Part shown: one piece after another, positions 9,202 to 50,635 of the stretch
Layout: each line of letters begins with the position of its first letter
Numbering within the stretch: the first letter of the stretch is position 1
Assembly (NCBI GenBank): GCA_001724275.1
Contig: MEDZ01000022.1
Location: 1 to 52,245, forward strand
Length of the DNA: 52,245 nucleotides
Source: Gemmatimonadetes bacterium SCN 70-22
GTDB lineage: Bacteria; Gemmatimonadota; Gemmatimonadetes; Gemmatimonadales; Gemmatimonadaceae
Direction of reading: 5' to 3'
Program-made: the position numbers and the translations under genes
Notes under the pieces: model-generated
Told to the model about the DNA's origin: nothing
Seen by the model: the letters and a program-made list of their open reading frames with translations, nothing else
Database searches by the model: none

Positions 9202-9413
9202 CGTCGGAGGACGAGGACGGCAACGCTGGCGGGCGGGGGCAGCCGGTCTGGCTTCCGGGTGCCGCGCCTTCCGCGCGTCGCGTTCCTGTGGATGCGACGC
9301 CACCCGACCTGTTGCCGGGACTCACGACCGGAGATCGAGCCACGAAGGCACGATGCGGGTGGCGTTGCAACCTGCGAGACAACGGCCTGGCGCGCGGCTG
9401 ATGCGCTCCCTGC

Positions 9414-9458
9414 GCGCATGCCATGTAAGACGCTGTAGGCACGTCACTTGGCATGTGC
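9414..9458. repeat. inverted repeat GCGCATGCCA / TGGCATGTGC
   Basis: Arms at 9414-9423 and 9449-9458, 9 of 10 positions complementary, separated by 25 bases in the AT-richer gap upstream of the TPR gene. It is a candidate paired operator site. Confidence 0.45.
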
Positions 9459-9563
9459 AATGTGCGTTTCCACATCACGTACAATTCGCCGCTGCGCAGG
9501 CTACCCGTGGGCGGCACGTCCTCTGCAACGGGTGTAAGTCCTGGCCCTTGTGCAAATGCCTGT

Positions 9564-9583
9564 GGAGGCGAAGTATTGCCTCC
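9564..9583 (+). other. hairpin in leader of TPR gene
   Basis: GGAGGC (9564-9569) and GCCTCC (9578-9583) form a perfect 6-bp stem with an 8-nt AT-rich loop, 27 bases before the start codon of the TPR gene. The left arm is also Shine-Dalgarno-like. Function is unknown; it may be a leader structure. Confidence 0.4.
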
Positions 9584-9610
9584 CCATATCCTCACTGGTC
9601 ACTGGAGTTC

Positions 9611-10882
9611 ATGCTCGCTCCGCTCAGTCCGCTCGAAGCCTATCGTTCCGACCTCGATCGAGAGCACCGCCGATCGGAGTTCGGGAACGCGGATACCGTA
9701 TGGCTCCTGCTGGCGCACTGTCTGGGTCGACTCGCCAAGGCGGGCGAACCGGTGCGCGACCAGTTGGCGCTGCAGTCCGCCAACGCGCTCCGCGACCTGG
9801 CGGACTCGATCGGCGATTCCGAGGAGTCCGATCCGGCCCACGTCCGCGATCTGCAGATGATGATCGCCGGGTTGTCGGCGATCGAGACGCGAGCGGGGGC
9901 GGACCTGGTTTCGCGGGCCTGCCGAGGCTTCGCCGCGCGGATGGTGGAGTCGGGAGCGCTCTTCGTAGCCTTCTCCGCGCTCGGTTTCGCTCGCACTGTG
10001 GCGGCCGATGCGACCGACCGGGAGCGCGGACTCCTGGCTGCGGACCAGGCCCGCATCGCGCGCCAGCTTGGTGAGCTCGACAGCGCTGACGAGCTCTATC
10101 GCGTGGCGAGCGCGATCGGAGAGCGCTCGTCGGACTCGGAACTCCTGTCGCGCTCGTCGCTCGGGCGGGGGGTGATTGCCCGCATCCGCGGCAACTATCC
10201 GCGGTCACGCGCCTTCTTCCAGCACGGTCTCAACCTGGCCGTCAGCGCCAACTCGCGCGAACTCGAGTTCTACGCCCATCAGGGGCTCACCATCGTCACC
10301 TGCGTGACGGGTGATTCTGACGGCTCGATCCGCCACGGCTGGGACGCGTTCCGGCTGGCCGTCGGCGATGTCACGCGAGAGGCGGAAACGCTGGTGAACC
10401 TGTCGCAGCTCTGCCTCGAGTACGGCTACCCGCGAGCGGCGCTGCGGGGCTTCATCTCCGCATTGGCGCGAACCAATCTGCTGCGTATCCGGCTGTCGGC
10501 GCTTGGTGGCGCTGCGCTTGCGGCGGGCCGTCTGGAGCAGCGCCCGCTGGTGGCGCGCATCGCGCGAGAAGTCGCCGAGACCACCGAAGGCTCGGCGCTC
10601 CCGTACGAGAACGCGCAAGCGCTGTATCACCTGTCCGCGGCCCACCTGGCGCTCGGCGATGAGGTCGGCGCCGAGCGGGTACGCCAGGAGGTGCAGAAGA
10701 TTGCGTCGGCCCGCGGATATCACGAGCTTTTGCATCAGGTGGAGCGGGACGAGCTCGCGCGGACGGCGCGACTGACCGAACCGCGCGAGCTCGCCAGCAC
10801 TTCGAGGAGCGTCGTCTCGGCGCTCGAGGCATTCGAGCCCGAGGCGGACGAACTCGCCTTCGCGACTATACGTGCGGATTGA
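9611..10882 (+). CDS. TPR-repeat protein, possible peptide-responsive regulator
   Basis: A 423-residue all-helical protein, predicted cytoplasmic, with no signal peptide or membrane segment. From about residue 130 onward it has degenerate TPR-like helix pairs (for example a stretch with ARQLGELDSADELYRVASA, then RIRGNYPRSRAFFQHGLNLA, and ALYHLSAAHLALGDEVGAE near residue 345). I see no N-terminal helix-turn-helix or catalytic motif. The start at 9611 is chosen because the upstream extension of the frame is non-coding in character and GGAG precedes this ATG. Its 3' end overlaps, convergently by 17 bases, a small lipoprotein gene with three heptapeptide repeats, and an AraC-type regulator follows. 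TPR receptors that bind short secreted peptides (the RRNPP group) have this general architecture, but no homology to them can be claimed from reading alone. Confidence 0.75.
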   Translation: MLAPLSPLEAYRSDLDREHRRSEFGNADTVWLLLAHCLGRLAKAGEPVRDQLALQSANALRDLADSIGDSEESDPAHVRDLQMMIAGLSAIETRAGADLVSRACRGFAARMVESGALFVAFSALGFARTVAADATDRERGLLAADQARIARQLGELDSADELYRVASAIGERSSDSELLSRSSLGRGVIARIRGNYPRSRAFFQHGLNLAVSANSRELEFYAHQGLTIVTCVTGDSDGSIRHGWDAFRLAVGDVTREAETLVNLSQLCLEYGYPRAALRGFISALARTNLLRIRLSALGGAALAAGRLEQRPLVARIAREVAETTEGSALPYENAQALYHLSAAHLALGDEVGAERVRQEVQKIASARGYHELLHQVERDELARTARLTEPRELASTSRSVVSALEAFEPEADELAFATIRAD

Positions 10883-11060
10883 CGAAGTCGACGTGCGGGT
10901 TCACGAAGTCCACATGGGGGTTGACGAAGTCCGCGTTCACGCACTTGTCTGACGCCGGGTTGCACTTGGCGGCGCCGTCGGGGCCCATCGGCGACGAGGA
11001 GCAGGCAGCGAGGCTGGCGGCGACAAGGACGTAGGCGGCAAGGCGAATGGCGCGGGACAT
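10866..11060 (-). CDS. small lipoprotein ending in three DFVNPHV repeats
   Basis: A 64-residue exported peptide. It has a basic n-region, a hydrophobic core and the lipobox LAAC (Cys20), so it should be a lipoprotein. The mature part is short: a Ser/Gly-rich linker, a two-cysteine loop (Cys33, Cys40), then exactly three copies of DFVNPHV (residues 44-50, 51-57, 58-64), with the stop directly after the third. A good AGAGGA Shine-Dalgarno lies 7 nt before the ATG at 11060. The three DNA copies (10869-10889, 10890-10910, 10911-10931) differ at several third positions yet encode identical peptides. It is convergent with the TPR gene and divergent from the AraC-type regulator. It may be a peptide-signal precursor or a surface ligand-binding tail; function unknown. 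Confidence 0.82.
   Translation of the reverse strand: MSRAIRLAAYVLVAASLAACSSSPMGPDGAAKCNPASDKCVNADFVNPHVDFVNPHVDFVNPHV
10869..10931 (-). repeat. three 21-bp coding repeats
   Basis: Three tandem 21-bp units encode the C-terminal heptapeptides of the small lipoprotein. All base differences between units are synonymous (Val, Asn, Pro, His and final Val codons vary). Confidence 0.9.
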
Positions 11061-11179
11061 GAGGTGTTCCTCTGGGTGAAGTGGGTGGATGGGAGAAGTC
11101 TGTCACGTCCGCTCGATGCGCACCGACATCGTATGGGCAGTTCCCATACACGGTGTAACCTTCACCTACGATTCACCGC
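11061..11179. promoter_or_regulatory. divergent promoter with palindromic operator candidate
   Basis: A 119-base gap between the lipoprotein (left, minus) and the AraC-type regulator (right, plus). A perfect 7-bp inverted repeat GTATGGG-N5-CCCATAC spans 11131-11149. TACGAT occurs on the + strand at 11167-11172, 7 nt before the regulator ATG (leaderless spacing), and again on the minus strand at 11133-11128, overlapping the palindrome and about 70 bases before the lipoprotein start. The layout suggests one operator controlling both promoters, possibly bound by the regulator itself; this is inference. Confidence 0.55.
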
Positions 11180-11974
11180 ATGATGGTCTGTGCGCTCGTC
11201 TGGGATTCCGCCTCGAGGGCGCGCCTGCAGGATGCCATGCGCGGCCAGGGGAGCGTGCGATTCTGCGAGCGCCAGGGCGAGTTGCTCGCCCTCGTCGAGC
11301 ACGACCTGGCACGCGTGATCGTCGTCGACCTGCGCGACCGCGAGGGGCGTTCCACACTGGATGCGGTGCGCCACATTCGTGAGGATTTTCCAAGCGTGCC
11401 GGTCGTGCTCTACTGCGCGATCTCGCCGGACACCTCACGCGACGTCCTCGCCTTCGCCCGGGCGGGAGTGAACGACCTCGTGCTCCGTGGCGTCGACGAC
11501 CTGCGTCACACGCTGCGCGCGGCGCTGACGACCGCGGCCGATCACTGCTCGGCGCGCATCATCCTGGCCGAGCTGGAGTCGCTCGTCCCGCCGAACGTGG
11601 TGCCGATGCTGCGCTATTGCATCGAGAACGCTCGTCGCTCGCTCACGGTGGAGGACGTGGCCGTTGCGCTGCACGTGCATCGCAAGACGCTCGTGGATCG
11701 CCTGGGGAGCGCACGCCTTCCCACGCCGAGCGCGATCATCTCCTGGTGCCGGCTCCTCGTGGCCGCGCGGCTGCTCGAGGATCCGGGGCGGTCGGTGGAG
11801 CAGGTCGCGTTGCTTCTGGACTTCCCGTCGGGGACGTCGTTGCGGAACATGATGAAGCGTTACACCGGCCTGCGTCCGGGCGAGATCCGGGAGAACGGCG
11901 GTGTGCATTGCGTCCTGCACACGTTCAAGCGCCAGCTGACGCGCGCGCCGGCCGCGCGCCGGGCGGCGAGCTGA
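11180..11974 (+). CDS. receiver-like / AraC-type HTH transcription regulator
   Basis: A 264-residue two-domain regulator. Residues 1-120 follow the receiver-domain pattern (VIVVDLRD, VPVVLYC, AFARAGVNDLVLRG), but the N-terminal acidic pair is reduced and the conserved Lys of the last strand is Arg, so classical phosphorylation is doubtful. Residues 145-235 are an AraC/XylS double helix-turn-helix (LTVEDVAVALHVHRKTL, then GRSVEQVALLLDF and LRNMMKRYTGLRPGEIR). No Shine-Dalgarno precedes the ATG; a TACGAT box 7 nt upstream suggests a leaderless mRNA. It is divergent from the repeat-peptide lipoprotein and likely acts on that intergenic region. Confidence 0.85.
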   Translation: MMVCALVWDSASRARLQDAMRGQGSVRFCERQGELLALVEHDLARVIVVDLRDREGRSTLDAVRHIREDFPSVPVVLYCAISPDTSRDVLAFARAGVNDLVLRGVDDLRHTLRAALTTAADHCSARIILAELESLVPPNVVPMLRYCIENARRSLTVEDVAVALHVHRKTLVDRLGSARLPTPSAIISWCRLLVAARLLEDPGRSVEQVALLLDFPSGTSLRNMMKRYTGLRPGEIRENGGVHCVLHTFKRQLTRAPAARRAAS

Positions 11975-23397: not shown

Positions 23398-23404
23398 GGG
23401 AGAG

Positions 23405-23441
23405 GAGAAGACGAGAAGACGAGAAGACGAGAAGACGAGAA
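23405..23441. repeat. tandem octamer repeat GAGAAGAC
   Basis: Four exact 8-bp copies (23405-23436) plus five bases of a fifth, purine-rich on the + strand, inside the pntAA-pntAB intergenic gap. It occupies the region directly before the pntAB start and so could influence coupling or mRNA stability within the operon. Confidence 0.9.
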
Positions 23442-23454
23442 CCCCGGGACGCCA

Positions 23455-24561
23455 TCAGGCGCGGGCGTTCCCGTCGTGGGCGACACACATGGGGGCGACG
23501 ATCTCGTCCTCGAGGTCGAGGGCGAGCGCGCCTTCCTTCGTGGTGATGTGCTGCAGGAGCGTGAGCACGTTCTTGCTGAACATCACGCTCGCGTGGAACG
23601 GAATGGAGCTTGGCAGGTTCACCGCCCCCACGATCGCGACGCCGTTCACCTCCACGACCTCGCCCGCCCTGGTCAGCTCGCAGTTCCCGCCGCTCTCGGC
23701 GGCCATGTCCACCACCACCGTTCCGGGGCGCATGCTGTGCACCATGTCAGCGGTGATGATCCGTGGTGCGGGTCGCCCGGGAATCTGCGCGGTGGTGATG
23801 ATGATGTCCTGCGTCTTCACGTGCTCCGCGAGCGCCGCGAGCGTCCGGGCCTTTTCCTCCTCCGTCTGCTCGCGCGCATACCCCCCGGCGGCCTCGGCGT
23901 CCTGCTGCGGCTCGGGACCGATGAAGGTGGCGCCGAGGGAGAGCACCTGCTCGCGGGCCGCGGCGCGCACGTCGTAGCCCGACACCACTGCCCCGAGGCG
24001 GCGCGCCGTCGCGATCGCCATCAGGCCGGCCACGCCGGCGCCCACCACGAAGGCCTTGGCCGGCGGAATGTTGCCGGCGGCCGTCGTCAGCATCGGGAGC
24101 AGCTTGGGCGTGTGCATCGCCGCCAGCAGCACCGCCTTGTAGCCGGCGACGGTCGCCTGCGATGACAGGATGTCCATGGACTGGGCCCGCGTGATGCGCG
24201 GAACGCGCTCCAGCGCCAGCGCCGTCACCCGGCGCGCGTTGAGCGCCGCGAGCGTGTCCGCGCTCGTCGACGGCTGCAGCAGGGAAATGACGAGCGCCCC
24301 TTCGCGGACCAGCGCCGCCTCGGCGGGTGAGGGGCGTTGCACCTTGCAGATGACGTCAGCATCGCCGAGCACGGCGCCGGCATCTTCGACCAACTCGGCG
24401 CCCGCGGTGGCGTAGGCGTCGTCGGGGATGAAGGCGGTGGTGCCCGCGCCCCGCTGCACGCGTACCTCGATGCCACTCTTCTTGAGGCGCGCCACGCTCT
24501 CTGGGACGAGAGCCACGCGCCGTTCACCGGCTGCGGACTCGCGAGGAACTCCTATGCGCAT
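23455..24561 (-). CDS. pntAA: NAD(P) transhydrogenase subunit alpha-1 (NAD-binding)
   Basis: A 368-residue soluble NAD(H)-binding domain I. It begins MRIGVPRESAAGERRVALVP and has the Rossmann motif VVGAGVAGLMAIATARRLGA followed by GYDVR, as in alanine dehydrogenase/PntA. The start at 24561 is chosen over one 60 bases upstream because it matches the family N terminus. First gene of the pntAA-pntAB-pntB operon. Confidence 0.95.
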   Translation of the reverse strand: MRIGVPRESAAGERRVALVPESVARLKKSGIEVRVQRGAGTTAFIPDDAYATAGAELVEDAGAVLGDADVICKVQRPSPAEAALVREGALVISLLQPSTSADTLAALNARRVTALALERVPRITRAQSMDILSSQATVAGYKAVLLAAMHTPKLLPMLTTAAGNIPPAKAFVVGAGVAGLMAIATARRLGAVVSGYDVRAAAREQVLSLGATFIGPEPQQDAEAAGGYAREQTEEEKARTLAALAEHVKTQDIIITTAQIPGRPAPRIITADMVHSMRPGTVVVDMAAESGGNCELTRAGEVVEVNGVAIVGAVNLPSSIPFHASVMFSKNVLTLLQHITTKEGALALDLEDEIVAPMCVAHDGNARA

Positions 24562-24626
24562 GTTGAATGATCCCGGGTGGAAAGGACGCGGCATTCTGTG
24601 CTGCGGCACGGAAGGGCACAAGACGG

Positions 24627-38261: not shown

Positions 38262-39092
38262 GTGACGACGACGGGACACACGCTCGAAGCGATCGAGGCG
38301 GCGGCCGCGGTGGTGCGCGCGCGGTACGCGCTCGTCCCCGAGGTCGCCATCGTGCTGGGCACCGGCCTCGGGGGACTGGCGCGCGCCATCGAGTCGCCGG
38401 TGGCCATCGAGTACGGCGACATCCCGGGATTCCCGCTTTCCACCGTCGAGTCGCACGCCGGCCGCCTGCTGTGCGGGACGCTGGCGGGGCGGCGCGTGGT
38501 GGCCATGCAGGGGCGCTTTCATCGCTACGAGGGGTACTCGCTGCACCAGGTGACCTTCCCGGTCCGCGTCCTGCGCGCGTTAGGCGCGCGCACGCTGGTG
38601 GTGTCCAACGCCTGCGGCGGGATGCACCCGCTGTGGAACGCGGGCGACCTCATGCTGATCGCCGACCACATCAACCTGCTGGGTGACAACCCGCTCGTCG
38701 GCGCCAACGACGATCGCCTGGGGCCGCGCTTCCCGGACATGTCGCAGCCGTACGATGCGGCGCTCCGCGACCTGGCCCGGGGCGAGGCGCGACGGCAGGG
38801 GGTCACGTTGCGCGAGGGGACGTACGTGGCCGTGGCCGGTCCCAACCTGGAGACGCGCGCCGAGTACCGGATGCTGCGCAGCATCGGGGGCGACGTGGTC
38901 GGGATGTCGACCGTCCCCGAGGTGATCGTGGCCGTGCACGGGGGGATGCGCGTCCTCGGGCTCTCGATCATCACCGACCTCTGCCTCCCCGACGCCCTCG
39001 AGCCGGCGTCACTCGACACGATCATCGGGGTGGCGGCGCGCGCCGAGCCGCACCTCACGTCACTGGTGACCGGCGTGCTGGAGCGCCTGTGA
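38262..39092 (+). CDS. punA: purine nucleoside phosphorylase
   Basis: A 276-residue trimeric-type PNP. Phosphate/nucleoside motifs are [32 protein letters not shown], the family signature [14 protein letters not shown] and GMSTVPE. It cleaves guanosine and inosine to base and ribose-1-phosphate, linking with hpt for purine salvage. A GTG start with GAGGGGA close upstream. Stop overlaps ileS (GTGA). Contains an octamer copy (38578-38585). Confidence 0.95.
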
Positions 39093-42000
39093 GTACGACC
39101 CGCTATCAACAACTCCCGGCCGACCGGCCGGCCGATGCCCTCGAGCAGGACGTGCTCGCGCGCTGGCGCGAGGAGCGCCTGTTCGAACGCACCCTCGAGG
39201 CGCGTGCCGGCAAGCCGACGTTTGTCTTCTACGACGGCCCGCCAACCGCGAACGGTCGCCCCGGCATCCATCACGTCTTCGCGCGCACGGTGAAGGACCT
39301 CTTCTGCCGGCATCGCACCATGACGGGGCACTTCGTCCCCCGCAAGGCGGGGTGGGACACGCATGGCCTGCCGGTGGAGATCGAGGTGGAGAAGGCGTTG
39401 GGGCTGTCGGGCAAGCCGGACATCGAGGCCTTCGGGGTCGAGGCGTTCAATGCCCGCTGCAAGGAGAGCGTCTGGACGTACCGGAAGGAATGGGAGCGCC
39501 TGGTGGAGCGGGTGGCGAACTGGATGGACTACGACCATCCGTACGTCACCTACACGAACGACTACATCGAGAGCGAGTGGTGGGCGCTCAAGACGCTCCA
39601 CGAGCGGGGACTCCTGTACCGGGGGCACAAGATCCTGCCGTACTGCGCGCGTTGCGGCACGGCGCTCTCGTCGCACGAGGTGGCGCAGGGGTACGAGGAC
39701 GTCGAGGATCCGTCGCTCTACGTGGCGCTGGACCTGGTGGCGGACGCGGACGCGAGCGGACGGGCGGACGAGGGGCGTCGCCGGCTGATCGTCTGGACGA
39801 CGACGCCGTGGACGCTGGTCTCCAACGTCGCGCTCGCGGTGCACCCGGAGCTGGAGTACGTCGAGCTTCGCAAGAAGAGCGGGACCGAGTGGACGATCAT
39901 CCTCGCGGCGGCGCGGGCGATGGCGGTGCTCGGGGACGATTACACCGACCGATGGGATGTCGTGCGGCGCCTGACGGGGAACGACCTGGTGGGGCGGCGC
40001 TACCGCCGCCCGCTGGATTGGGTCCCCTTCGAGGGCGGGAGCGGGGCGCACGAGGTGATCGTCGCGGGCGACTTCGTGTCGGCCGAGGATGGAAGCGGGA
40101 TCGTCCACATGGCGCCGGCCTTCGGCGCCGACGACTACGCCATGGGGCAGAAGCACGGGCTGGTGATGCTCCAGCCGGTGAACGCCCGCGGCGCCTTCGC
40201 TGACGACGTCCCCGTCGTCGGCGGGGTGTGGGTCAAGGACGCCGACCCCGTCATCGTCGAGGAGCTCCGGAAGCGCGACGTCCTGTGGAAGGCGGGGAAG
40301 CTCGTCCACGCCTACCCGCACTGCTGGCGGTGCAAGACGCCACTGCTGTACTACGCGCGTGTCTCGTGGTTCGTCCGGACGACGGCGTTCAAGGACGAGA
40401 TGATCGCGCGCAACGCGGCGATGGACTGGCATCCGGCCGAGGTCGGGGAGGGGCGCTTCGGCGAGTGGCTCAAGAACAACATCGACTGGGCCATCTCGCG
40501 CGACCGCTATTGGGGGACGCCGCTCCCGGTCTGGGTGAACGATGCCGATCCCGACGAGATCGAGGTGATCGGCTCGTACGCGGAACTCGCCGAGCGCTGT
40601 GGTCAGGCGCTCCCGGCGGACTTCGATCCGCACAAGCCATTCATCGACGCCTTCACCTGGCCCGCGCGCTCGGGGACGGGGACGATGCGGCGCGTCCCGG
40701 AAGTCATCGACGCCTGGTTCGACTCGGGATCGATGCCGTTCGCGCAGTGGCACTACCCGTTCGAGAATCGCGCGCTCATGGCCGAGCGCTATCCGGCCGA
40801 CTTCATCGCCGAGGGGCTGGACCAGACACGCGGCTGGTTCTACTCGCTGCTGGCGATCGCGACGGGGCTGGGCGACGCGCTGCCGAACAATGCGGGCGAC
40901 GGGAGACGGGAGACGGGAGACGGGAGTCGCGCGGCTCGCGCGGACACCACCGCGCCCGGGGGCGCCGGGGGCGCGGCCGACGCCCGAGTCCCGGCCCGCG
41001 TCCTTGCGGCGCCGTACAAGGCGGTCGTGGTGAACGACCTCGTGCTCGATGCCAACGGCGTGAAGATGTCGAAGAGCCGGGGGAACGTGGTCAATCCGTG
41101 GGAGGTGCTGGCGGCCCACGGCGCCGACGCGGTGCGCCTCTTCCTGATCGCGTCGAGCCAGCTCGGGACTCCGAAGCTGTTCGACGCCAACGCCATCCGC
41201 GACACCGCGGCGCGCTTCCTCGTCACGCTCAAGAACGTGTACAGCGGGATCTTCGCGCTCTACGCGAACTTCGGGTGGGAGCCCTCGGCCGCCGATCCGG
41301 CGGTGCACGACCGTCCGGTCCTGGATCGATGGATCCTGTCGCGACTGACGGCGCTGGAGGAGGGGGTCCATGCGCAGCTGCAGGGCTACGATGCCACGTC
41401 GGCGGCGCGCGCCATCATGGGCTTCGTGGTCGACGACCTGTCGAACTGGTACGTGCGCCTGTCGCGCCCGCGGTTCTACGAGGTGGAGGGCGACGACAAT
41501 CGTGCCGCCTTCGCCACGTTGCACGAGTGCCTCGTGGTGACGTCGCGGCTGCTGGCCCCCGTGGCCCCGTTCCTGACGGATTGGATGCACCGCCAGCTCA
41601 CGGGAACGTCGGTGCACCTTGCCGACTTCATCCGGGAGGCCGCAACGGTGCCGGCGCGCGAGCCCGGGCTCGAGCGGGGGATGGCGGAGGTGCGCGAGCT
41701 GGCGACGCTGGGGCGGGCCGCGCGCGAGGAGGCCGGCGTCAACGTGCGCAAGCCGTTGTCGCGGGTGGTGTGCGTGGTGCCGCGAGAGCTGGCGGCCGAC
41801 GTCGAGCCGCTCCTCCCGCTCCTGCAGGCGGAATTGAACGTGAAGGCGGTGTCGCTCGCGACCTCGGCCGACGACCTGGTCACGCTGGAGGCGCGGCCGA
41901 ACTTCCGGTCGTTAGGCAAGAAATTCGGCAAGGCGACGCCGCTGGCGGCGAAGGCGGTGCAGGCACTCGCGAGCGAGCACCTGCGGGCCTTCGAGCGAGG

Positions 42001-42418
42001 GGAGCCGCTGGCGCTCACCGTCGAGGGCGAGACGCACGTCCTCGATGCCGAGGACCTGACGATCCTTCGGCGCGCCTCCGGCGACCTGGTGGTGAAGGAA
42101 TCGCTCGGGCGCTTCGCGGCGATCGATCCCCAGCTCACCCCCGCGCTCCGACGCGAAGGGCTGGCGCGGGAAGTCGTCAGTCGTGTGCAACGGCTGCGCA
42201 AGGACACGGGGCTGGCGGTCTCCGACCGGATTCACCTCCGCCTCTGGGGAACGCCGGAGATCGACGAGGCAGTTGGGGAGTACAAGGAGTGGATCGCGGG
42301 CGAAGTGCTCGCTCGCACGGTCACGATCGGTCGTGACGGCAATGTGGCTGAAACAGCGACGCACGCGGTGGAGATCGACGGACTCACCGTGCACGTCGCC
42401 CTGACCCGGGACGAATGA
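39089..42418 (+). CDS. ileS: isoleucyl-tRNA synthetase, type 2, GXHH signature
   Basis: A 1109-residue class I synthetase charging tRNA-Ile. The first signature, HXGH in nearly all class I enzymes, reads PGIHHVFA (Gly59-Ile60-His61-His62), i.e. GXHH; KMSKS is at 659-663. The editing domain ([15 protein letters not shown] region) and anticodon-binding C-terminal domains are complete, with the length and sequence of the eukaryote-like type-2 form. Just before KMSKS there is an insertion of roughly 35 low-complexity residues (Gly/Arg/Ala-rich) coded partly by a 4x heptanucleotide repeat. GTG start overlaps the punA stop; its stop overlaps the next ATG (ATGA). Confidence 0.96.
40898..40925 (+). 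repeat. tandem heptamer GACGGGA x4 inside ileS
   Basis: Four exact 7-bp units in the coding region of the insertion upstream of KMSKS. The unit is not a multiple of three, so any change in copy number other than by three units would shift the frame of an essential gene. Confidence 0.9.
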
Positions 42419-47854: not shown

Positions 47855-50635
47855 ATGCCCGCGGTGATGTCCTCCGAACGCGACCGCGAGGTCTTGCGGT
47901 CGTTCGCGCACCGGATCGATCCCGGTGACGCGGGCGCGCACAACAACCTCGGCGTCCTCTACTTCAACAAGGGGATGACGGCCGAGGCGGTGGCGGAGTT
48001 CACGCGTGCGCTCGAGCTGGATCCGCGCATGACGATCGCGCAGCGGAACCTCGAGATCGCGTATTTCAACTCCGGCTACTACGACATGCGCGTGGAGCAG
48101 CTGCGCGAGCGGCTGCGGACCCACCCTGGCGATCGTGACGCGCGCTGGGAGCTGGGGCGCACGTACGCGCTCCTCGGCGACGCGGGCCAGGCGGCCGAGG
48201 CCTTCCAGGCGGTGCTGCGTGACGCCCCGGACGACGTGGACGCGATGTTGCAGCTGGCGCTGGCCGAGTCGGCGGGGGGGGACGGGGAGGCGGCGGCCGA
48301 GTGGCTGGCGCGCGCCGTGCAGCTGGCGCCCGACCGCCCCCTGCTGCACTTCCAGCTTGGGCAGGTCGCGTACCATCGGGGGCTGAACGACGAGGCGCTG
48401 CGCCACCTCGCGCGTGCCATCGCGCTCGCGCCCGACGATGCCGACGCGCACTACCTCACGGCGTTCGTGCTGGGTGACATGGGGCGGCACGAGGAGGCAC
48501 GCGCGGCGACGCAGCGCGCCATGCAGCTGAGCCCATCGCTGGGGCGGGCCCAGGCCAACCTGTCGCTGGAGCGGTTCGACGCCCGGTCGTACGACCGCGC
48601 CCGGGCGGTGCGGGAAGCCCGGGGGCTTCCCGACGCCATGCGGGTGGCCGAAGACCGCCAGCTGGCGCACCACAACCTGGGGCTCGCCTTCCGGCAGAAG
48701 GGATACCTGGCCGAGGCGCTGCGCGAGTACCGCCTGGCCCTCGATCGCGGCGAGGACCGCCAGCTGGTGCTCCAGGCGATGGCCGAGGTGCACCTGCTGC
48801 GCAAGGATTCGACGGCAGCCGTGCAGCTGTACGACCGCCTGCTGCAGGAGCAGCCGCAGTCGCCCAAGCTGTGGAACGAGCGGGGGATCGCGCTGCACCA
48901 GGACGGGCGCCACGCCGACGCCGCGGCGAGCTACGAGCGGGCGATTGCGGCTGACGGGCACTACGTGCTGGCGATGAACAACCTCGCTGTCGCGCACTAC
49001 CACGCCGGGCGGAGCGACCGCGCCCTCGACGCCCTGCGTCGCGCCCTGCACGAGGTGCCGGGCTTCGTGAAGGCCCGCCTCAACCTCGCCCTCCTCCTCT
49101 TTCGCGCGGGCGAGCCCCAGCGCTCCCTCGAGGCGTACCGGCAGGTGCTGCGCCTGGCCCCCGACCTCGCCGTCGCCTGGAACGGGGTGGGGCTGGTCCT
49201 GGCGCACCTGCGCAAGTTCGAGGATGCCCGCAACGCCTTCGCGCGGGCGATCGAGTCGCGCGCGGACTACGCCGAGGCGCACTACAACCTCTCGTTCGCG
49301 CTCTCCAACCTGGGCGACTTCACCGGGTCGCTGCGCGAGACCAAGCGCGCCCTCGAGCTGGACCCGTACTACACGCCCCAGAAGTTCGAGCTGGCCATCG
49401 ACCTCGAGTTCGAGGACCCGCTCCTCGAGGTTGCGCCCGACGTGGCGGGGGAGCGGCGCGACGGCGTGGTCGAGGAATTCCGCTTCGAGCCGGCGGCGCT
49501 GGATCGCCTGTTCGACGAGCTCGCGGCCCCCCCCCCGGCGGCGGCCGGGGGCACCGAGGGGGCGCCGTTCGCGCTCGCGCGCGCCTGGGCGGCGCAGGGG
49601 GAGCTCGAGAAGGGGTGCAACGAGGTCAGGCGGGCCATCGCCGAGGGGGCGCCGCGCGATGTCGGGCTCGTCACGTTAGGCGACCTGTTCCTCGCCCAGG
49701 GCGTCGCCGGTGAGGCGCTCGAGCGCTATCGCGAGGCGGCGGCGCTGTCGCCGGCGCTGTCGCCAGCGGGGTCGCCAGCGGGGTCGCCAGCGGGGTCGCC
49801 AGCCGGGTCGCCGGCGCTGGCGGCGGCCCGCGTCGGCGAGCTGCGCGCCCTGGTCGCGTTGCGCCGGCCTGCCGAGGCCCGTGACGCGGCCGACTGGGTG
49901 GAGCGGCACGGCGCGGACGACGTCGACGCCCTGCTGCTGGCGGCCGAGGTCCGGGCCGACCTCGACGAGGGAAGCCGCGCGCAGGAACTGCTGGCCCGCG
50001 CCCGGCGGCTCGCCCCGATGCGCCCCGACGTGCTGGAGGCGATCGGCCGGGTGGCGCACGCGATGGGCGATGACGCCCTCGCCATCGAATCGTACCGGCA
50101 CGCCATCGCCCTCGACCACGATTTCGCCGCCTGCCGGGTGCAGCTGGCGGAACTGCTGCGGGCGGCGGGGCTTCATGCCGATGCCGAGCGCGAGCTCGAG
50201 GCGGCGCTCGACAGCGTGCCGACGTACGCCGATGCCGTCCTGGCGCTGGCCCGGCTGCGGCGCGAGTGCGCACGCGCCGCCGACACCATCGAGCTGCTCG
50301 CCCGTTTCCTCGAGGGGAATCCCTTCCACCTCGATGCCCTGGCCTCGCTGGGCGAGTCGCTCTTCCTGGCGGCCCGCCGGGAGGATGCGCGCTTCGCCTT
50401 CGCGCGCATCCTCCGCTTCGACGCCGACCATGTGGCGGCGCGATACTTCCAGGGCGTCCTCCTAGCCGAGGCGCACCGCTTCGAGGAGGCGATGGCGCAC
50501 TGGGCGCGGGTGGTGGACCTGGAGCCGGCGGGGGAGTTCGCCCGTCGCGCGCGGCGCGATGCGCGCACCGCGCAGGACCTGCAGCGCATCTTCGCCGGGC
50601 GTGCCCAGCGGGGGGGAGGAGGCCATGGCGATTGA
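47855..50635 (+). CDS. large TPR-repeat protein of the chemosensory operon
   Basis: A 926-residue protein made almost entirely of TPR units, visible from residue 30 (HNNLGVLYFNKGMTAEAVAEF) through about 520, then a less regular middle (roughly 530-620) and more TPRs to the C terminus. There is no signal peptide or membrane segment. The middle has a Ser-Pro-Ala-Gly repeat tract coded by 12-bp units. It starts 4 bases after cheC and overlaps the next gene by 11 bases. A scaffold for the chemosensory or motility complex is a reasonable guess. Contains an octamer copy at 49674-49681. Confidence 0.85.
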   Translation: MPAVMSSERDREVLRSFAHRIDPGDAGAHNNLGVLYFNKGMTAEAVAEFTRALELDPRMTIAQRNLEIAYFNSGYYDMRVEQLRERLRTHPGDRDARWELGRTYALLGDAGQAAEAFQAVLRDAPDDVDAMLQLALAESAGGDGEAAAEWLARAVQLAPDRPLLHFQLGQVAYHRGLNDEALRHLARAIALAPDDADAHYLTAFVLGDMGRHEEARAATQRAMQLSPSLGRAQANLSLERFDARSYDRARAVREARGLPDAMRVAEDRQLAHHNLGLAFRQKGYLAEALREYRLALDRGEDRQLVLQAMAEVHLLRKDSTAAVQLYDRLLQEQPQSPKLWNERGIALHQDGRHADAAASYERAIAADGHYVLAMNNLAVAHYHAGRSDRALDALRRALHEVPGFVKARLNLALLLFRAGEPQRSLEAYRQVLRLAPDLAVAWNGVGLVLAHLRKFEDARNAFARAIESRADYAEAHYNLSFALSNLGDFTGSLRETKRALELDPYYTPQKFELAIDLEFEDPLLEVAPDVAGERRDGVVEEFRFEPAALDRLFDELAAPPPAAAGGTEGAPFALARAWAAQGELEKGCNEVRRAIAEGAPRDVGLVTLGDLFLAQGVAGEALERYREAAALSPALSPAGSPAGSPAGSPAGSPALAAARVGELRALVALRRPAEARDAADWVERHGADDVDALLLAAEVRADLDEGSRAQELLARARRLAPMRPDVLEAIGRVAHAMGDDALAIESYRHAIALDHDFAACRVQLAELLRAAGLHADAERELEAALDSVPTYADAVLALARLRRECARAADTIELLARFLEGNPFHLDALASLGESLFLAARREDARFAFARILRFDADHVAARYFQGVLLAEAHRFEEAMAHWARVVDLEPAGEFARRARRDARTAQDLQRIFAGRAQRGGGGHGD
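49748..49819 (+). repeat. 12-bp tandem repeat (SPAG tract)
   Basis: Six 12-bp units, the middle three identical (TCGCCAGCGGGG), coding for Ser-Pro-Ala-Leu/Gly repeats in the TPR protein. Being a multiple of three, copy-number change alters linker length without frameshift. Confidence 0.9.

Follow-up and report, generated by a model that had tools for sequence, protein, structure and literature searches.

Can a bacterium with two membranes operate a circuit in which a peptide cut from a small exported precursor controls a cytoplasmic tetratricopeptide repeat (TPR) protein? Peptide signalling through TPR receptors is described as a Gram-positive Firmicutes system (PMC10075063, PMC11343458). The question is raised by a locus of Gemmatimonadetes bacterium SCN 70-22 (assembly GCA_001724275.1), in which genes for a TPR protein, a small lipoprotein ending in a repeated heptapeptide and an AraC-type regulator lie side by side. 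The window that we analysed is positions 1 to 52,245 of contig MEDZ01000022.1, forward strand (52,245 nucleotides). We consider it somewhat probable, at roughly 0.57, that these genes of a diderm phylum form a Rap-Phr-like peptide circuit, whose tail peptide would switch the grip of the TPR protein on a receiver-type regulator. The gene order, its conservation, selection on the repeated unit, the receiver nature of the partner and a unique operator-like element carry this reading. The parts of the cassette are the following:

9611 to 10882, plus strand: TPR protein gene, 423 residues, without a signal peptide; candidate Rap-like peptide receptor
10866 to 11060, minus strand: lipoprotein gene, 64 residues, candidate peptide precursor; Sec signal and lipobox LAAC (both assigned by pattern only), codon of Cys20 at 11001 to 11003
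10869 to 10931, minus strand: three DFVNPHV heptapeptide units, running up to the stop codon
10866 to 10882: convergent overlap of 17 bases between the 3' ends of the lipoprotein and TPR genes
11124 to 11161: operator-like element CGACATCGTATGGGCAGTTCCCATACACGGTGTAACCT, containing a palindrome at 11131 to 11149
11180 to 11974, plus strand: regulator gene, 264 residues, pseudo-receiver (REC-like) and AraC-type helix-turn-helix (HTH); divergent from the lipoprotein gene

An earlier sequence-only reading had described this locus as a candidate peptide-signalling module, and its gene positions and strands, the overlap, the divergent AraC regulator and the palindrome were all confirmed to the base. 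The lipoprotein likewise proved to be 64 residues long and to end exactly at the third DFVNPHV: its sequence reads MSRAIRLAAYVLVAASLAAC, then SSSPMGPDGAAKCNPASDKCVNA, then (DFVNPHV)3 and the stop, and the part after MSRAIRLAAYVLVAASLAAC opens with SSSPMGPD. A Pfam search assigned it to no family, and in NCBIfam the only match was a weak one of its signal region to TrbK; an Rfam scan of the window returned no match. Across families, almost every cassette lipoprotein has a short motif after the lipobox cysteine (such as SP[TM][AG]P, TGP or TAP), in the window at 10977 to 11003 on the minus strand, which could serve to sort or export lipoproteins in Gemmatimonadota.

Is the repeated tail more than a chance array? 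The three DNA copies of DFVNPHV differ at synonymous positions only and relatives in other genera carry two to four like units, which argues against chance. Across 17 arrays, copies within a gene showed proportions of synonymous and nonsynonymous differences (pS and pN) of 0.60 and 0.014, respectively; synonymous saturation next to a nearly identical protein sequence indicates that the peptide unit itself is under selection, each unit being held to one sequence. This same pattern excludes the repeats as an RNA or DNA element, and, as judged from sequence, fits a multi-copy peptide precursor.

The C-terminal ends are hypervariable and lineage-specific. Repeated units include DFVNPHV x3, DFVNPHI x3, NFVNPNV x3, DYVNPLG x4, GGSQPWY x3, APTLPW x4, RRPTIPW x3, ATEVVPWF x2, HNPDSGN x3, YTPDGGN x4, HLPDSGT x3, HGPDAGS x4, HTLGSGN x6, YTPDPGA x7 and NWQGSGT x2, and other tails hold a single unit (...DTIPWN, ...DVKPWG, CRSGY..C, CDYVNGNICH). 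Genomes with two cassettes carry a different tail in each. One class of tails has GSG[GSTN] or a similar sequence at or near the C-terminus (L163, L191, L193, L215, L217-L219, L221, L222 and L224), and in L171, L176 and L199 GSG lies inside the repeats. The lipoproteins of L184 and L188 stop just past the lipobox, with the tails CTSSSIVGPD and CAD, and are possibly decayed precursors or sequencing errors.

How constant is the association of the three genes? Homologues of the lipoprotein (E <= 1e-5) were found in 12 of 148 genomes of the same family, the query included, most of them with two to four unit copies such as DFVNPNV, NFVNPNV, DFVNPNA and DYVNPLG. All 12 adjoin an AraC gene and 11 a TPR gene; the contig of the twelfth ends before the TPR position, so that a lipoprotein lacking its TPR neighbour, which the sequence-only reading had named as evidence against itself, did not turn up. 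Within the family, TPR and AraC homologues are adjacent and in the same orientation in about 50 loci, which were selected for this adjacency, and a small lipoprotein is encoded between the two genes in the reverse direction. A TPR profile reached other families of the order, the class and the phylum, with the same gene arrangement (most of these later loci were taken by TPR score only). An automatic rule detected the opposite-strand lipoprotein in 84 of 91 TPR-AraC pairs from several Gemmatimonadota families, and L096 was added by eye as the 85th lipoprotein-bearing locus. A repeated tail occurs in 24 of the 91, which speaks against TPR homologues being always without a repeat peptide, the other outcome that had been named as adverse. 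The search that the earlier reading had proposed, for homologous repeat lipoproteins beside TPR and AraC genes, thus bore out the association in Gemmatimonadota, and the signalling module stands as a supported candidate.

As a control, the lipoprotein rule was applied to nine AraC paralogues that have no TPR gene beside them, where it never fired, and to 1022 random flanking segments, where it fired in 56 (5%), with a short tail and the post-cysteine motif in 4. Among genes within a few kilobases, the TPR and AraC families are common to 88-89 of 89 loci and the next flanking family is present in 24; as only these two are shared throughout, the syntenic unit does not go beyond the trio. That the genes had been inherited together as part of a large conserved block was rejected, given that the flanks differ between clades. 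The convergent overlap measures 17 bases in most window-clade loci; in two others it is 11 and 14. Metagenome-assembled genomes of Gemmatimonadaceae are the closest named relatives, and a search for related loci with a close subset of the TPR alignment retrieved eight such genomes with Gemmatimonadota names. Gemmatirosa kalamazoonensis carries a cassette on each of two plasmids (NZ_CP007130.1 and NZ_CP007129.1), and no plasmid-borne TPR homologues were found outside Gemmatirosa.

Which kind of protein, then, is the third partner? The regulator matches Pfam HTH_18 at 49.6 bits against a cut-off of 33.6, which identifies an AraC-type HTH in it, and matches Response_reg below threshold. Its AlphaFold model (predicted local distance difference test, pLDDT, of 94) shows a receiver fold followed by the HTH, and matches receiver domains at a Z of about 18. 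The AraC regulators of the cassettes lack the Mg-binding acid pair and the conserved Lys and are therefore pseudo-receiver proteins; the phospho-acceptor position holds Glu or Asp in the family of the window and mostly Asp elsewhere. Hence the combination of acidic pair, phosphorylatable Asp and Lys that marks a phosphorylated response regulator was not found in the AraC proteins, and a phospho-relay through their receiver was rejected on account of the degenerate site.

TPR loci without an AraC gene mostly keep the lipoprotein, and a receiver protein usually fills the AraC position and orientation. This is a NarL/FixJ-type response regulator in L152 and L163 and a single-domain receiver in L159, L185, L187, L189 and L227; L212 and L213 have receiver-domain proteins as well. 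The NarL-type and single-receiver partners score well above the Pfam Response_reg cut-off. A second survey yielded nine loci without AraC, seven of which retain the lipoprotein. Downstream sequence was sufficient in 73 of the more distant TPR loci, mostly picked on TPR score alone, and 65 of these 73 have a receiver-type neighbour, which makes the receiver domain a nearly constant feature of the third gene. The AraC regulator that had been proposed as third member therefore holds for the window, and the module as a whole is wider, its third partner being defined by the receiver domain. A partner so defined points to Rap-Phr and not to the DNA-binding RRNPP receptors, and the TPR protein probably acts on the receiver partner encoded next to it.

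The TPR protein itself belongs to a conserved family for which a search of NCBIfam returned no entry, and its Pfam TPR_12 match is sub-threshold. The AlphaFold2 model predicts a full, all-helical TPR solenoid (pLDDT 93.2, predicted TM-score 0.88) that follows an N-terminal helical part at residues 7-113. In fold comparison the Z scores were 25 for LGN, 20-21 for Rap proteins, 19.7 for NprR and 19.3 for MalT; TPR folds match too broadly for a ligand to be assigned from this comparison alone, and such an assignment was rejected. Arg148 and Arg151, which by our own numbering occupy groove positions 9 and 12 within a single TPR, are conserved in the family and outside it, which is compatible with peptide recognition and no proof of it.

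Does the control region suit a closed circuit? The intergenic palindrome GTATGGGcagttCCCATAC, at 11131 to 11149, has an expectation of 0 in shuffled sequence. The 38-bp element that contains it is conserved between the lipoprotein and AraC genes in 10 genomes of five genera within the window clade, and most of the 28 invariant columns of the control-region alignment fall within the element, the flanks having diverged. With up to three mismatches allowed, it is present in a single copy in the genome of the window, which suggests, at the level of sequence, a self-contained and autoregulated circuit. In the control regions of other clades, direct repeats in tandem with a spacing of about 21 bp are seen by eye, for instance GGGCGTTTTTGCGACA twice and ACCGTGGGCAA twice.

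The circuit that we propose would run as follows. The lipoprotein would be exported by Sec, and proteolysis would cut its C-terminal tail, here three copies of DFVNPHV, into short peptides. These would re-enter the cytoplasm through an oligopeptide permease of the Opp/Dpp type (the host genome has four SBP_bac_5 genes of this type) and bind the TPR protein. The latter, Rap-like, would act on the receiver partner, here the pseudo-receiver-AraC protein, and peptide binding would alter this interaction; the regulator in turn would bind the operator between the divergent genes and control the lipoprotein gene as well as its own, closing an autoregulatory loop whose direction, up or down, may be either. 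The signal could travel between cells or only through the envelope of the cell that makes it.

This scheme has close counterparts among known systems. Rap proteins are under the control of Phr peptides, whose small exported precursors sometimes hold one to four repeated pheromones, Phr3T/Phr105 being a case of tandem copies (PMC11343458, PMC3601957), and they target ComA and DegU, of the NarL type, and the single receiver Spo0F (PMC11343458). The Gemmatimonadota cassette resembles Rap-Phr in its cytoplasmic TPR protein without HTH, in the small adjacent and putatively Sec-exported precursor with a C-terminal unit of 5-10 residues that is sometimes repeated, and in its swapped partners, whose NarL-like and single-domain receiver types match these Rap targets. 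It differs in that it belongs to a diderm phylum, that its precursor is a lipoprotein encoded on the opposite strand between the TPR protein and the target, that the target gene, mostly for a pseudo-receiver-AraC protein, lies within the cassette, and that up to seven repeats occur. With the DNA-binding receptors PlcR, NprR, PrgX and Rgg it shares the predicted TPR solenoid and the small, putatively exported precursor, whereas here the TPR protein has no HTH and DNA binding resides in a separate protein. Another comparison is offered by the sex pheromones of enterococci, peptides cut from the signal sequence of a lipoprotein precursor; the likeness would lie in a lipoprotein-derived peptide signal, and the difference in the enterococcal peptide coming from the signal sequence.

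RRNPP systems have been characterized by a Sec-secreted propeptide of 10-100 residues and a directly adjacent gene for a receptor of 250-500 residues with TPRs (PMC10075063). The precursor has 64 residues, and its homologues are comparable, with uncertain start codons in some; the precursors show a clear signal sequence and lipobox of the signal peptidase II type by pattern only. The receptor has 423 residues, with cassette homologues in the same range, and combines a predicted solenoid with TPR folds as best matches; adjacency holds in the 84 of 91 loci and extends to overlap in the window. This five-part signature as a whole fits, save that the signal, judged by pattern, is of the lipoprotein kind and not of the signal peptidase I kind. 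RRNPP receptors also share a conserved Asn in TPR4 that contacts the peptide backbone, N227 in RapF (PMC3601957). Since homology to RRNPP and this Asn are not established for the Gemmatimonadota protein, we call the system Rap-Phr-like and not a member of Rap-Phr. A literature search, with most subscription journals outside its scope, found no paper describing the cassette.

Several points weigh against such a circuit. The closest structural match of the TPR protein is the eukaryotic LGN and not Rap, and among the 60 matches listed for its profile against PDB sequences there was no RRNPP chain at E <= 0.01, LGN and designed TPRs being among them. The lipid anchor and the outer membrane complicate release and uptake of a peptide, and the cassette contains no protease or permease gene. 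The operator is present once in the genome of the window, which leaves no wider regulon visible. Six TPR-AraC pairs (L112, L118, L155, L157, L173 and L174), with gaps of -3 to 133 bp, have no lipoprotein, so the pair can exist alone; perhaps the pair is the older unit, or perhaps the precursor is encoded elsewhere. Some of this would suit envelope sensing, in which the anchored lipoprotein offers its repeats as a multivalent dock for a periplasmic or outer-membrane protein and the TPR protein and regulator only adjust its supply. The lipid anchor, the lack, in most precursors, of obvious processing sites between abutting repeats and a single operator suggestive of autoregulation agree with this; many lineages, however, have single-copy tails, the tail changes completely between genera while TPR protein and regulator persist, and the cassette offers no docking partner, which together make envelope sensing unlikely.

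The variability of the tails, the presence of several cassettes with different tails in one genome and the Cys-bracketed tails of some lineages (CRSGY...C, CDYVNGNICH) would also suit a secreted antagonistic peptide, similar to a bacteriocin or to a ribosomally synthesised and post-translationally modified peptide, for which the TPR protein would provide immunity or regulation. We hold this to be quite improbable, as no conserved modification enzyme, exporter or immunity-type membrane protein lies beside the cassette, the short units hardly differ between close species, and on the other side there is almost always a receiver-type regulator. Small repeat-tailed lipoproteins can, in general, be structural, and the sequence-only reading had itself considered a surface tail unrelated to the TPR protein. 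That the tail is structural or adhesive and the three genes lie side by side with no function in common is nevertheless hard to credit, because the lipoprotein is linked to TPR and receiver-type genes across several families in a fixed opposite-strand position, is absent at AraC paralogues without TPR, and is retained where the regulator is swapped for other receiver proteins.

The window holds further repeats elsewhere. About five copies of the 7-base CGGGAGA at 40893 to 40926 lie in a long open reading frame (39089 to 42418) that by eye looks like isoleucyl-tRNA synthetase, where slippage would shift the frame. The 12-base repeat GTCGCCAGCGGG, in about six copies at 49747 to 49816, encodes an SPAG-type linker in a TPR-containing frame of 926 residues (47855 to 50635), and five copies of the 8-base AGACGAGA at 23401 to 23441 stand just outside the end of a minus-strand frame (23455 to 24621).

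What would a Rap-Phr-like circuit mean for the phylum? We speculate, leaning slightly towards doubt, that the cassettes represent a class-wide pheromone system of diderm bacteria, in which lineage-specific peptides of 6-10 residues from repeat-tailed lipoproteins control receiver regulators by way of a Rap-like TPR switch and a genome has several private channels; the origin of the system would be independent of the RRNPP systems of Firmicutes or go back to them very anciently. If the circuit is real, the Gemmatimonadota version would demonstrate that two membranes are no obstacle to such circuits, and would provide dozens of peptide sequences to test. Gemmatimonadota are a common soil phylum that is hard to study, and the parts list, the peptides and a named host make the question directly testable.

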